Source: Deltaproteobacteria bacterium
Lineage (GTDB): Bacteria > Desulfobacterota > Desulfobaccia > Desulfobaccales > 0-14-0-80-60-11
Assembly: GCA_021813445.1 (NCBI GenBank)
Contig: JAKAKP010000103.1
Span: forward strand, 1-46,385
DNA length: 46,385 bases
Direction: 5' to 3'
This document shows, in pieces, positions 11,130 through 18,316 of this stretch; positions within the stretch are counted from its first letter, which is position 1; every line of letters starts with the position of its first letter. The translations under genes were made by a program, and so were the position numbers. Under the pieces are notes generated by a model. The model made no database searches. It saw only the letters and a program-made list of their open reading frames with translations, and was not told the DNA's origin.

Positions 11130-11205
11130 GGGCCGTTAACTCAGTCGGTAGAGTATCTGCCTTTTAAGCAGAGAGTCGTTGGTTCGAATCCAACACGGCC
11201 CACCA
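11130..11205 (+). tRNA. tRNA-Lys (anticodon TTT)
   Basis: A 76-base cloverleaf. The acceptor GGGCCGT pairs with ACGGCCC, the anticodon loop is CTTTTAA within the TCTGC/GCAGA stem, the T-loop is GGTTCGAATCC, and CCA is encoded at 11203-11205. It reads AAA/AAG codons. Confidence 0.97.
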
Positions 11206-11217
11206 ACAAACGCTTAC

Positions 11218-11295
11218 GTCCCCATCGTCTAGCCTGGTCCAGGACACCGGCCTTTCACGCCGGCAACACCGGTTCAAATCCGGTTGGGGACGCCA
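11218..11295 (+). tRNA. tRNA-Glu (anticodon TTC)
   Basis: A 78-base cloverleaf. The acceptor GTCCCCA pairs with TGGGGAC, the anticodon loop CTTTCAC sits on a CCGGC/GCCGG stem, the T-arm holds GGTTCAAATCC, and CCA is encoded at 11293-11295. It lies 12 bases after tRNA-Lys and is co-transcribed with it. Confidence 0.97.
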
Positions 11296-13497: not shown

Positions 13498-13836
13498 TTA
13501 TTCCCCCTTGGGAGCATCCTTGGCCCGGATGGTTTGACCGCCGATTTTCTTGGTCCCGGCCTTGGCCGGTTCATCTTCCAGGGGGCCCAGGCTGCGGCTC
13601 TTCCTTTGCATTCGCTCCGGTTGGCGCGGGGGCGGCACCTGGGTCGGGGCCGCCTCTGGTTTTTTCAGCACGGATTCCGGACTTGGCGCTTTGGCTTTTT
13701 CCGGCTCCACTTGTTGTGCCAGGAGTAAAGGCTCGGGGTTGCCGACTGCGGCCGTCACCACCCTGGGGTGCAGGGTGACCGCCAAAAAAAGGACCGAAGA
13801 TAGACCTACTATGGCTGCCATGAGGCATCGAGACAT
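13498..13836 (-). CDS. Small Pro/Lys-rich exported protein
   Basis: A predicted 112-residue periplasmic protein of unknown function. The start at 13836 (MSRCLMAAIVGLSSVLFLAV) opens a signal sequence and is preceded by GGGAGGGC. A longer frame starts at 13875, overlapping the stop of the CHAT gene as TAATG, but it would hide the signal peptide. The mature part is low-complexity: Pro-, Lys-, Glu- and Ala-rich with VEPEKAKAPSPES and TQVPPPRQPER, probably unstructured. Last gene of the cyclase-CHAT unit; the close spacing suggests a linked function such as a partner or substrate of the CHAT protein. Confidence 0.6.
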   Translation of the reverse strand: MSRCLMAAIVGLSSVLFLAVTLHPRVVTAAVGNPEPLLLAQQVEPEKAKAPSPESVLKKPEAAPTQVPPPRQPERMQRKSRSLGPLEDEPAKAGTKKIGGQTIRAKDAPKGE

Positions 13837-13874
13837 AAACTGCCCTCCCTTGAAATCCGCAAGTTCCACCTGCA

Positions 13875-16163
13875 TTATATTATACCGGTCAACTCAAAAG
13901 CTGCCCAATAGTAGGGGTGGGGGAACTTTTTTCTCGTGGCCAGTTGGGCCTGGCGCAGCGCCTCCCCCTTATTGCCCTTCTTGAGGTCCGCATAGAACTG
14001 CTGCATCAAGTAAGAAGTGGCCTGATCATCCACCTCCCAGAGGCTGGCCACAATAGTATTGCTGCCGGCGTAGAGGAATCCCCGGGTGAGACCCACCACG
14101 TCGTCGCCGTTACGGATTTTTCCCAAACCGGTGTCGCAGGCGCTCAAGGTCACGAGGTCGGCATGGAGACGCAGGGAATACAGCTCACCCAGACTCAAGA
14201 AGCCGTTGCTCTTGGCGTCATTAGCTAACAGCAGGCCGGAATGCAGCGGCTGGTCCGGGTCGAACCGCCCATGGGTGGCGAAATGGATATAGGAGAATTG
14301 CGGCCCCAGGGTGGTGAACGCCGTTTTGGTGGCGTCTTTACGGACCAGCACTTTGGCCCGGGGGAAGTCTTTGGCAATGGCTTCCGCTTCCTGCTGGGCG
14401 CACTTGAGATCATATTTCGGGTTGCCCAGATCAGGATTGCCCAGGGCCAACACCCCGCTGGCCGGGGAGGCGGGCCGCGCCTGGAGAAATTGCAGGACGC
14501 TGGCGCAGGGGAGTTGGCGCAGGCTGTAGCGGTCGAGCAGATACTCGTTGCCGCACATCAAGACATTGAAAGGCAGGTAGTGGAGAGCCCCGTGCGCCAC
14601 GATCAGCAGTTTCTTCTGAGTCAGCGCCGGTTCCAGCGGTTTGATGAGGCGGGTGTACAATTTCTGAGCCGGGGTGACATAATTTTGGGATTCCGGTTGT
14701 TCCAGGGCGGTCCGCAGTTGCCGGATATCGGCCAGCATCTGGCCGCCATGGAGCTTGAACCCCCGCACCGCCTCCCGGGTCACCACAAAGGCATTGAGAT
14801 CATCACCCTCATAATAATATTCCACCAGCGCCTCGTCGGGCTGGAGCAGAGATTGAATTTTGCTAACCGTCACGGGCATCACCGTGACCAGGGAGGCCAG
14901 TTCCGGGGCCACGGTTTGTAACTTCTGCTTCACCTCAAGGGCCCGGGAACTGCGGGCCGCCCCGGCTTTTTTCACCCGGGCCTGGGCCTCCTGCGTATCT
15001 AACTCGGCCACCAAGGCGGTCACTTGCTGCTGCGCGGCCGGGGGCGCGGCAAAGTCCTTCTGGGCCGCCAGGAGGTCCACCAGGGCCCTGGATTTGGCAC
15101 GTTCCACGTATTCAAAGGCCTCGGCAGTCTTCCCGGCGGCAAACAGGGCTGCCACCAGGGCATGATAGACCTGTTGCTTGTTGCCCACGAAACCGATCTT
15201 GGAGGCCTCGGTATTGATGGTGGACCGCTGCCGTTCGATGACTTCGATGGCCCGGCGGTAAAAGTCGATGGCCTCCTGGAGTTTGCCTTCGGCCTGGGCG
15301 ATCTTGCCCCGGTCGAAGAGGATCAGCCAGTAGATGTCCCCGTTATCCTTGGTCTGGGGGTGGGCCAGGAGCTTATCGTAACCGGCCTTGGCTTTTTGGA
15401 CCTGCCCGGTTTCATATAGGCTCTTATTCAGAATGAAGAGCTTGGGCAGCTGATTAAAGGCAAACAGCTCATCCTGGGCCGACATGGCGCCGATCTTCAC
15501 CGTCATGGCGCTTGCTGCCTGCCGTTCCCCGGCGGCGGCTTCATCCTGCTTGATGGTGGCCAGGCTGCGCTGAAAGTCGCCCAGGGCCATATAGGCCCGG
15601 GCCTGACCGTTCAGGATATCCGTCTTGACCACAAAACCGCCGGTATTTTTCCGGGCCATATCCCCTAACATCCCGGCGTATTTCTCCGCGGCGGCGCGCT
15701 CGCCCTGGAGGGCGCTGGCCAAAGCCAGGACGCCGAGGGCCTGCACCCGCATCCAGGGACTCAGGCGGCGCTGCTGCACGATCTCATAGGCCTTGGCGGC
15801 CTGGGCCGCGGCGCCCCGGTAATCCCCAAAGTCTATAGCAGCCGCGGCCCGGATGACCGCGGGCTCCGCGGAGATATCAAAACCCATGGCGGTCCGGTCT
15901 CCCTGGTCAATGCGGGCTTGGAGCCGGTCCACACAGGGGAAGAGCTTGTTGTATTCCTTCAGATTGAAGTAGGCCCCACAGAGCAGGAACAACTCTTTGG
16001 TACCGGGCGGCTGGTTTTTCGCCTGGCTTTCCAGATATGTTTCCAATTCCGCCCACTTGGACGAACTCGCCAGCCTGTCAGCTTGCGGCACCAAAGCCGC
16101 GGCCGGAGAGCTGACGCTTACAGCCAGCAACCCCAGACAGATTGAGAGTATCAGAGTTTTCAT
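13875..16163 (-). CDS. Exported TPR-CHAT domain protein (caspase-like)
   Basis: A 762-residue protein. A Sec signal peptide (MKTLILSICLGLLAVSVSSP) shows it is exported; GAGGAGAGGGG before this ATG settles the start over one at 16238. Residues about 30-400 are helical TPR-like repeats (for example a LQEAIDFYRRAIEVIERQ motif). The C-terminal CHAT domain (about 480-760) has the caspase-type dyad His631 (FATHGRF) and Cys676 (LSACDTG), followed by GDDVVGLTRGFLYAG and ASLWEVDD. CHAT proteins are clan CD cysteine peptidases; one group (TPR-CHAT) acts in type III-E CRISPR, but no CRISPR genes are near. Here the neighbour is a CHASE2 cyclase. Confidence 0.9.
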   Translation of the reverse strand: MKTLILSICLGLLAVSVSSPAAALVPQADRLASSSKWAELETYLESQAKNQPPGTKELFLLCGAYFNLKEYNKLFPCVDRLQARIDQGDRTAMGFDISAEPAVIRAAAAIDFGDYRGAAAQAAKAYEIVQQRRLSPWMRVQALGVLALASALQGERAAAEKYAGMLGDMARKNTGGFVVKTDILNGQARAYMALGDFQRSLATIKQDEAAAGERQAASAMTVKIGAMSAQDELFAFNQLPKLFILNKSLYETGQVQKAKAGYDKLLAHPQTKDNGDIYWLILFDRGKIAQAEGKLQEAIDFYRRAIEVIERQRSTINTEASKIGFVGNKQQVYHALVAALFAAGKTAEAFEYVERAKSRALVDLLAAQKDFAAPPAAQQQVTALVAELDTQEAQARVKKAGAARSSRALEVKQKLQTVAPELASLVTVMPVTVSKIQSLLQPDEALVEYYYEGDDLNAFVVTREAVRGFKLHGGQMLADIRQLRTALEQPESQNYVTPAQKLYTRLIKPLEPALTQKKLLIVAHGALHYLPFNVLMCGNEYLLDRYSLRQLPCASVLQFLQARPASPASGVLALGNPDLGNPKYDLKCAQQEAEAIAKDFPRAKVLVRKDATKTAFTTLGPQFSYIHFATHGRFDPDQPLHSGLLLANDAKSNGFLSLGELYSLRLHADLVTLSACDTGLGKIRNGDDVVGLTRGFLYAGSNTIVASLWEVDDQATSYLMQQFYADLKKGNKGEALRQAQLATRKKFPHPYYWAAFELTGII

Positions 16164-16277
16164 GAGCTTGCCCCTCTCCTCTAAACTGCATATCGGCAGG
16201 GTTGGATTTGCCAATAAATGAGCTGTGACTCTGCTCACCGCCCGGCCCCAAGCGCCGGTAATGAGTCCGGGCGCGGG

Positions 16278-18215
16278 TCAGGCATCTTCTTGCAGCCCCA
16301 GAACCTCGTAAACTTTCAGAGGTTCCTGGCGGCCCTTAACCGTGCGGGTCTCTTCTCTGCCGGTGATCACCCCCGGGGCCGCGGCGATGGTGCTGTGGCT
16401 GGCCACGATGGTCCAACCCAGTTCTTTGGTCAAAGACTCCAGGCGGGAGGAAGCGTTAACCGTATCGCCGATGGCAGTAAACTCCAGGCGTTTGGGGGAG
16501 CCGATATTGCCGACAATGGCCTCGCCGCTGTGGAGGCCGACGCCGATGGCAAAACCCGGCAGATCCAGATCGCCGAAACGCTGCTGCATCCAGCCGCGAA
16601 ACTTCTGGGCCTTTTGGGTCAGGTCCAACGCGGCTTTGAGAGCGCGGCGGGCATGGTCGGGATAGGGCACCGGCGCGCCGAAGACCGCCATCACCGCGTC
16701 GCCGATGAACTTATCCACCGTGCCCCCCTGGGCCAAAATGGGCTCGCAGGCCTGGCTTAAATAGGTGTTGAGCATCTCCACCACCTGGCGGGGCCCCAGT
16801 TTTTCGGAGATCGTCGTAAAATTGCGGATATCGGAGAACAGGACCGTTACCTGGAAGGCTTCGCCGCCCAAATCCGGGAACTGGCCCGACGCCAGCAGTT
16901 TTTCCACCACTTCGTCTGCGACATAGCGGGAAAAAATCTTCCGGATCCGGGCCCGTTCCCGCTCCTCCCCGGTGAGCTTGATCCCCAGGAAGCCCATGTA
17001 GCTGAGGATGACCGCCAACTGGGCGTTGGCGGCGGGCAGCAGCCAGTACTGGGTAAACAGCAGGTAGGCGCCCCCTGCGGCCAGGGCGCATAAGGCCAGG
17101 CCCGCGGCCAGGCCGCGCCAGGGGGAGAGCCAATAAAATAAGGCGCTGGCAGCCAGGAGGAGGCAGAGCAGATAAAGCCAGGTGAGCCAACGGGGGAGGG
17201 GCCGGGGAAATTTTCCGGTGAGCAGGGTCTCGATGATGTTGGCGTGAATTTCCGGCCCGCTCATGTCGCTGCCCTCCCACGGCCACAGGCTCAGGGAATA
17301 CGGGGTGGGATGGCTGTCCTGAAGCGCCGCGGGTTCATAGGCCATGATCACGGCTTTGTTCTTGAGGGCCATGATCGCCGGGTCCTTCTCCGCCCCCGGC
17401 ATTAGGAAGCGCCCCATGGAGAGGCGCGGGAAGGTCCCCGGGGGACCGGCAAAGCCGATAAGGGGGAAGGTGCTGTTATTTATGCCCTCAGGGTCTACGC
17501 CCGACCAGGCCTGTAAGGCCGGATCGCGGCGCAGCCGTTGTAGCAGGGCCGCGGGGTCGCGGTTCGCGGCTCTCAGGGCCAGCAGTTTGCCGAAGGTAAA
17601 CGCCGCCTGCCCGTAGTCATCCGCCAGGGCCGGCACGAACCGGCGAATCGTGCCGTCATCGTCATTGTAAAAATTGATCAAACCCAGGTCAGACTCTGGC
17701 CGCGGCAAGGTGGAGAAGTAAGCCGGGATAGGGGGGATGATCTTGCTTTTGTCATGGGCATCGGTGGCCAAATTCCCGGCCAGGACGACCCGGCCGGAAG
17801 CGAGCTGTTCTTTAAAAGAACCGTCATAATTCCGGAGGCGGGGGTTTAATGGCAAATCCAGGGTTTCTAGCCAGGAGGAGATGCTGACCTGAAAAAGATA
17901 GTCCATGCCAATGCTTTTGGCGCCCACCCGGCGCAAGATCTCCAGCACCCGGGCAAAGTAGGGCGTCCAGCAGATCAGTGGTTCTTTGGGATGCTCTTGC
18001 AGGGTCTTTTCATCCAGGGCCACTATCACCACCTGCTGCGGCTGATAACGGACCCCGGCCCACTGGTGCCAGAGATCATAATAAATTTCTTCCGGCCGCT
18101 CCAGCCATCCGGCCCAGGTCAGCCCAACCACCGCCCCGTAAACCAGGAGCAGCAGCAGCGCCACCAAGAGCAGGGTGTCTTTCCGGCGTACGTTTTTGGT
18201 CATCGCTTTGGCCAA
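16278..18215 (-). CDS. CHASE2-domain class III adenylate/guanylate cyclase
   Basis: A 645-residue membrane receptor cyclase. One membrane segment (about 14-36) leads to an extracytoplasmic CHASE2 sensor (about 38-340, with VVIVALDEKTL and VGAKSIGMDYLF). Three clustered membrane helices follow (about 345-420), then a cytoplasmic cyclase domain (about 455-640). The catalytic domain keeps both metal aspartates (LFSDIRNFT and GDAVMAVFG), the base-selecting Lys (VDKFIGD) and FTAIGDTVNASSRLE; this pattern favours adenylate over guanylate cyclase. It is the first gene of a three-gene unit with the TPR-CHAT and Pro-rich exported proteins; the gap to the CHAT gene is 114 bases. The signal sensed is unknown. 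Confidence 0.9.
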   Translation of the reverse strand: MAKAMTKNVRRKDTLLLVALLLLLVYGAVVGLTWAGWLERPEEIYYDLWHQWAGVRYQPQQVVIVALDEKTLQEHPKEPLICWTPYFARVLEILRRVGAKSIGMDYLFQVSISSWLETLDLPLNPRLRNYDGSFKEQLASGRVVLAGNLATDAHDKSKIIPPIPAYFSTLPRPESDLGLINFYNDDDGTIRRFVPALADDYGQAAFTFGKLLALRAANRDPAALLQRLRRDPALQAWSGVDPEGINNSTFPLIGFAGPPGTFPRLSMGRFLMPGAEKDPAIMALKNKAVIMAYEPAALQDSHPTPYSLSLWPWEGSDMSGPEIHANIIETLLTGKFPRPLPRWLTWLYLLCLLLAASALFYWLSPWRGLAAGLALCALAAGGAYLLFTQYWLLPAANAQLAVILSYMGFLGIKLTGEERERARIRKIFSRYVADEVVEKLLASGQFPDLGGEAFQVTVLFSDIRNFTTISEKLGPRQVVEMLNTYLSQACEPILAQGGTVDKFIGDAVMAVFGAPVPYPDHARRALKAALDLTQKAQKFRGWMQQRFGDLDLPGFAIGVGLHSGEAIVGNIGSPKRLEFTAIGDTVNASSRLESLTKELGWTIVASHSTIAAAPGVITGREETRTVKGRQEPLKVYEVLGLQEDA

Positions 18216-18316
18216 TTACCTAGTCTGAGCCGGATACCGGTGCAAGTTCCCGAGATTGACAGAAAAACCTTTCGCCGAAGTTATTGTCTGGCGATATTTG
18301 TGATTTTGCGCTCAGA

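Follow-up and report, generated by a model that had tools for sequence, protein, structure and literature searches.

A CHASE2 receptor adenylate cyclase, an exported TPR-CHAT protein and a short exported protein form one gene block in a member of the Desulfobaccales

A stretch of 46,385 nucleotides from a Desulfobaccales bacterium (contig JAKAKP010000103.1 of assembly GCA_021813445.1, hereafter the window) carries a receptor-type adenylate cyclase gene followed by genes for a caspase-like CHAT protein and a very short exported protein, which raises the question of whether the three belong together and what the two exported proteins might do for the receptor. A full-text literature search returned no paper holding both "CHASE2" and "CHAT domain". 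In the order of transcription on the minus strand, mnmG (20209-18317) is followed by the cyclase, the TPR-CHAT protein and the small exported protein, and the last three genes are co-directional:

18216..18255, minus strand: upstream leader common to the window and its sister genome, the 5' edge of the block (DNA comparison)
16278..18215, minus strand: CHASE2 receptor adenylate cyclase, 645 aa (Pfam CHASE2 and Guanylate_cyc; class III motifs)
13875..16163, minus strand: exported TPR-CHAT protein, 762 aa (Pfam CHAT, AlphaFold model, hydrophobic N-terminus)
13498..13836, minus strand: small exported low-complexity Pro/Lys/Glu-rich protein, 112 aa (N-terminal hydrophobic segment, relatives)

The closest genome, the sister genome G001 (record JAGVAH010000049.1), possesses the identical three-gene order in a different chromosomal setting, with a peroxiredoxin-like gene where the window has mnmG and other genes beyond. 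DNA similarity between the two begins about 40 bp before the cyclase and ends about 20 bp past the small gene; in the leader, 17 of 20 and then 18 of 20 positions are identical, after which identity drops to 6 of 20 and less and the upstream genes differ. Since the same block has differing flanks and the similarity ends at the block edges, the three genes form one block, in a three-gene form known from two genomes of one genus (the window genome and G001), and the original prediction that they make up one unit was borne out. The gene mnmG was excluded as an operon member, because the block of G001 sits behind the peroxiredoxin-like gene instead. A promoter and terminator scan gave seven promoter-like sites, as well as terminator-like sites at chance level with none on the minus strand. 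Elsewhere in the window, two tandem tRNA genes are present on the plus strand at 11130-11292 (Rfam).

The cyclase, whose start is annotated as TTG with an ATG possible four codons further on, is recognized by the Pfam models CHASE2 (E 4e-35) and Guanylate_cyc (E 8e-22), which delimit two domains:

17148..18134, minus strand: CHASE2 sensor domain, predicted to lie outside the inner membrane (Pfam, residues 28-356)
16323..16853, minus strand: class III nucleotide cyclase domain, predicted to be cytoplasmic (Pfam, residues 455-631)

The catalytic motifs FSDIRNF, DKFIGDAV and GDTVNASSR are present and keep the residues for metal, substrate and transition state that a class III cyclase should have; with these catalytic motifs intact, the protein is a predicted adenylate cyclase. 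According to hydropathy, CHASE2 is preceded by one hydrophobic segment (residues 14-32) and followed by three (about 343-412), an arrangement of one N-terminal and several C-terminal transmembrane segments from which it follows that CHASE2 would face out, in agreement with the outside-facing sensor proposed at the outset. The AlphaFold model of the CHASE2 domain has a pLDDT of 85, and a fold search with it in the PDB gave no match with E below 0.3. Compared with the sister genome, the cyclase is under purifying selection (dN/dS 0.15). The one paper that we found on the matter gives the signal sensed by CHASE2 as unknown (PMC5192318).

The CHAT gene starts at the ATG at 16163, which is preceded by a purine-rich ribosome-binding site, and not at the GTG at 16238; the dyad numbering used here follows from this start. 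From this ATG, the N-terminus shows one hydrophobic segment (residues 4-22) ending in SSPAAA and is signal-peptide-like; for this protein and the small one alike, signal peptides were assessed from hydropathy and visual inspection rather than with a dedicated predictor. The idea that CHAT and the sensor share a compartment is consistent with this, as hydropathy predicts an envelope location for the CHAT protein, the CHASE2 domain and the small protein alike. The Pfam CHAT match is strong (E 8e-69, 232.8 bits against a cut-off of 24) and is accompanied by weak TPRs:

13884..14672, minus strand: CHAT domain (Pfam, residues 498-760)
14271..14273, minus strand: His631 of the CHAT dyad, in HFATHGRF (invariant in 24 aligned CHATs)
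14136..14138, minus strand: Cys676 of the CHAT dyad, in TLSACDTG (invariant in 24 aligned CHATs)

The intact His631/Cys676 dyad described from the sequence was thus confirmed by the alignment. The AlphaFold model of the protein (pLDDT 81) has its closest solved structures in the PDB in Csx29, the TPR-CHAT of Craspase, then in DdvA, a transmembrane anti-sigma factor, and in separase. The best of these, Csx29 of type III-E CRISPR, combines TPRs and a CHAT fold with a His-Cys dyad, as the window protein does, and is a protease shown to cut Csx30 (PMC10028731). Unlike Csx29, however, the window CHAT is predicted to be exported, and no Cas7-11 gene adjoins it. Membership of Csx29/Craspase was ruled out, with an NCBIfam score of 48 bits against a cut-off of 300. 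By analogy, the dyad and relatives such as Csx29 suggest that the window CHAT would cut something. It is under purifying selection relative to the sister genome (dN/dS 0.20), its GC content resembles that of the neighbouring genes, and no compositional sign of recent transfer was seen in this comparison.

For the small protein, the most likely start is not 13875 but the ATG at 13836, which gives 112 aa. The protein has a single N-terminal hydrophobic segment (residues 4-22), matches none of the Pfam or NCBIfam models searched, and evolves more loosely than the cyclase and CHAT (dN/dS 0.67 against the sister genome). Its relatives were found in five other genomes, only next to CHASE2 cyclases of the window clade, and aligning the copies revealed a conserved tail:

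13525..13551, minus strand: conserved C-terminal motif KKIGGQTIR (alignment of small-protein copies)

The motif takes the form [RK]-[FYI]-G-G/A-x-x-I-R in all copies; G99, I103 and R104 are invariant in seven copies, and also in nine when those of G008 and G021 are included. These nine copies have little in common beyond a hydrophobic N-terminus, a charged Pro-rich linker and the tail motif. Of 5045 ORFs, 6 match the tail pattern in its strict form, and each of these is a small-protein copy; 0.2 are expected in shuffles. This count speaks for specificity and is not independent proof, as the pattern was defined from the small proteins themselves.

The distribution of these copies answers which gene the small protein accompanies. 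In G016, a cyclase 68% identical to that of the window is directly followed by a small-protein relative, and no CHAT gene was found in this genome, which is 97% complete. In G009 (L084:7230-8570), one CHASE2 cyclase gene is followed by a tandem array of four genes for short exported proteins that carry this C-terminal motif. A profile from the known copies, built without the two that it then found, added G021 and G008 (E 8e-10 and 3e-12, respectively). In G021 the CHASE2 cyclase is followed by the small protein with no CHAT between, and in G008 (L146:1495-1908) an in-frame deletion joins the first approximately 60 cyclase residues to the small-protein tail with the ORF kept, so the two genes must have been neighbours there too. 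Thus, four of the six genomes with the small protein (G016, G021, G009 and G008) have no CHAT between it and the cyclase, and in the remaining two, G000 and G001, it comes after cyclase and CHAT. The small protein follows the cyclase, not CHAT, and by its distribution it is not a CHAT accessory; the suggestion that it is a dedicated CHAT substrate does not hold, because it sits beside CHASE2 cyclases without an intervening CHAT in these four genomes. Of the linkage among relatives on which the original prediction depended, the part joining cyclase and small protein stood, and the part joining CHAT to the other two did not, since CHAT genes occur apart from them.

Among the genes beside other CHASE2 cyclases of the phylum, the commonest Pfam family is FecR (5 of 39). 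The small protein was tried as a FecR-like homologue, as the motifs look alike (SRFGAGVIR versus MRYSGVIP), and hhalign against the FecR-like proteins of related operons returned a probability of 1.4%, so that homology was not confirmed and the likeness is kept as a lead only. Accordingly, with neither a Pfam match nor detectable FecR-like homology in its small protein, the block is not an operon of the CHASE2-FecR type. Two FecR-like proteins (L086:7204-7866 and L089:7590-8567) have a linker with repeated R[STA]GA[IT]xxM, faintly like the tail motif, and DUF928 proteins have a GGG[ST]R stretch near the start, whose likeness to the tail motif is likewise kept only as a lead. The short exported proteins form a partner family with no match among the Pfam and NCBIfam models searched, and the block assembles known kinds of parts in a new combination.

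The origin of CHAT in the block was approached through phylogeny. In the CHASE2 cyclase tree, the window protein (WIN) groups with those of G001, G016 and G009 in one clade (SH-aLRT 100), and in the sister clade an exported FecR-like protein comes after the cyclase, with CHAT present as well in several members. One member is the window genome itself, whose contig C95 carries a second CHASE2 cyclase, an exported FecR-like protein and a TPR-CHAT protein in one operon (L007:3507-8921); the same arrangement is found in G004, G011 and G171, and further members are broken by contig ends. The window CHAT groups among solitary exported TPR-CHATs, several of which have lipoprotein-like N-termini, and a tree constrained to unite it with the sister-operon CHATs was rejected (p-AU 3.7e-60). 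The CHAT tree thus conflicts with the cyclase tree, so CHAT was joined to these CHASE2 cyclases more than once. From these trees, the window CHAT is not orthologous to the CHATs of the sister operons, and the exported caspase-like protein is a later addition in the line leading to the window genome and G001.

Whether CHAT and CHASE2 genes meet by chance was assessed in 198 genomes of the phylum, with 42 CHAT loci in 23 families. A CHASE2 gene lies near CHAT in 11 of the 42 loci (0.28 expected) and, counted by family, in 7 of 23 (0.28 expected, P 1.6e-9, where treating families as independent is an approximation). Operon-like loci, on the same strand and close together, number 7 with 0.08 expected. 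There are two CHAT genes in the window genome, both adjoining a CHASE2 cyclase, and four CHASE2 genes in all; as the two CHAT loci had prompted the test, they were also left out, which gave 9 seen with 0.26 expected. CHAT-CHASE2 adjacency is not due to chance and occurs in at least four separate lineages, so the proposal that the two work together gains support. In family f14 (L046, L049, L050 and L053), the CHAT gene is divergent from the CHASE2 cyclase gene or operon, and the operon in L053, L046 and L049 also includes a TrkA/ion-channel-type protein and a family 1 glycosidase (by Pfam in L053 and by clustering in the others). Six plasmid records with CHAT loci have no CHASE2 annotated nearby, and one of these records contains a two-partner-secretion pair.

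Several known or related systems resemble parts of the block. The Sinorhizobium CHASE2 cyclases CyaD1, CyaD2 and CyaK respond through the outer-membrane protein NsrA (PMC13001267); as in the window, CHASE2 is outside and a class III cyclase inside, and the receptor depends on another envelope protein. However, that partner is an outer-membrane beta-barrel, while the window has a tiny tailed exported protein and a TPR-CHAT. The Burkholderia BiofilmReg operon, consisting of a CHASE2 histidine kinase and an exported LysM-FecR protein (PMC5192318), likewise co-encodes a CHASE2 receptor with an exported partner, but it has a kinase output and neither CHAT nor a short motif protein. Closer to home, the C95, G004, G011 and G171 operons come from the same family, combine a cyclase of the same CHASE2 clade with an exported TPR-CHAT, and differ from the window in exported partner, gene order and a non-orthologous CHAT. 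In G175 (L079:456-10904), one operon encodes TpsB, a CHASE2 cyclase, a DUF928 protein and a fusion of TPR-CHAT with a haemagglutinin-type TPS protein; G179 has a similar locus in which CHAT is a gene of its own. These two-partner-secretion loci also combine CHAT and a CHASE2 cyclase with a further exported protein in one operon, although their CHAT is fused or adjacent to the haemagglutinin-type protein, TpsB is present in G175, and their cyclases belong to a distant clade.

The partner habits of other CHASE2 receptors, the FecR neighbours and the distribution of the small protein together mean that it is best read as an envelope partner of the cyclase. The reading that we prefer, with a probability of about 0.45, is accordingly that the CHASE2 receptor works with an exported partner and that a periplasmic CHAT was added to the two as a regulator. 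Against it, the closest relatives of the window CHAT are solitary, so that a CHAT of this type can work without CHASE2. The same solitary relatives, together with the CHAT-free pairs of cyclase and small protein in G016 and G021, would fit a CHAT that is non-proteolytic or unrelated and merely landed in an operon whose other products work without it; yet its dN/dS indicates strong selection, it was retained inside a block whose flanks rearranged, and CHAT-CHASE2 linkage recurs in unrelated lineages, which makes such a bystander unlikely.

If CHAT instead served specifically to cut the small protein or the CHASE2 ectodomain and so switched the cyclase, its place in the same block and predicted compartment, its intact dyad and a fold nearest to TPR-CHAT proteases with known substrates would all be explained. 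Separase is an Arg-specific clan CD protease, and an Arg-ended motif in a flexible tail would suit such an enzyme. However, motif and small protein persist in G016 with no adjacent CHAT and none found in the genome, so the motif was not made for CHAT, and in the sister operons CHAT comes with another exported protein; we therefore consider this explanation quite unlikely. A TPR-CHAT that works as a binding protein, sensing or scaffolding in the envelope without cutting, is more doubtful still: the match to DdvA may point to a TPR-CHAT-like architecture in a membrane regulator, but the invariance of His and Cys in 24 CHATs suggests a retained enzyme. A role in defence, with infected cells killed through cAMP or CHAT, is highly improbable. 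The cyclase domain does match Pycsar cyclase profiles (E 3e-28) and CHAT weakly matches a BovA profile, but any class III cyclase would match the former, and a cyclase that is a membrane receptor and a CHAT that is exported count against such a role; a PADLOC scan of CHAT and the small protein found no Pycsar effector beside the cyclase, whose neighbours are CHAT, the small protein and mnmG, and nothing beyond these generic matches favours a defence role.

In the preferred reading of receptor, exported partner and added CHAT, the core, which the genome comparison demonstrates, is the CHASE2 receptor cyclase and the partner encoded just downstream, and it would act as an envelope-sensing cAMP unit. 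In the window clade the partner is short and of low complexity, its hydrophobic N-terminus joined by a Pro/Lys/Glu-rich linker to the C-terminal motif; in the sister clade the larger exported FecR-like protein occupies the equivalent position. The predicted periplasmic TPR-CHAT joined this core in the lineage of the window and G001. Held in the periplasm, the partner may engage the CHASE2 ectodomain directly or via the C-terminal motif reaching another envelope component, and this engagement would set cyclase activity. The TPR part of CHAT might read an envelope signal and activate CHAT, which would then alter the partner-CHASE2 interaction and thereby cAMP; the simplest means would be cleavage of the tether or of another envelope protein. 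In this scheme we infer the compartment, from hydropathy, as well as the physical contacts, the proteolysis and the direction of the cAMP effect. A bolder version, to which we give little credence, holds that the short proteins are a new family of tethered-peptide partners of CHASE2 receptors, multiplied in tandem in some genomes, and that envelope CHAT proteases were joined to these receptors several times so that tether proteolysis would change cAMP.

For the biology of these receptors, the short protein encoded alongside, with its conserved C-terminal motif, offers a concrete candidate for the CHASE2 input. Moreover, exported CHAT proteins were joined to CHASE2 cyclases repeatedly, which points to an unstudied connection between cAMP and caspase-like proteins of the envelope and suggests a recurrent coupling of envelope proteases to such receptors in bacteria.
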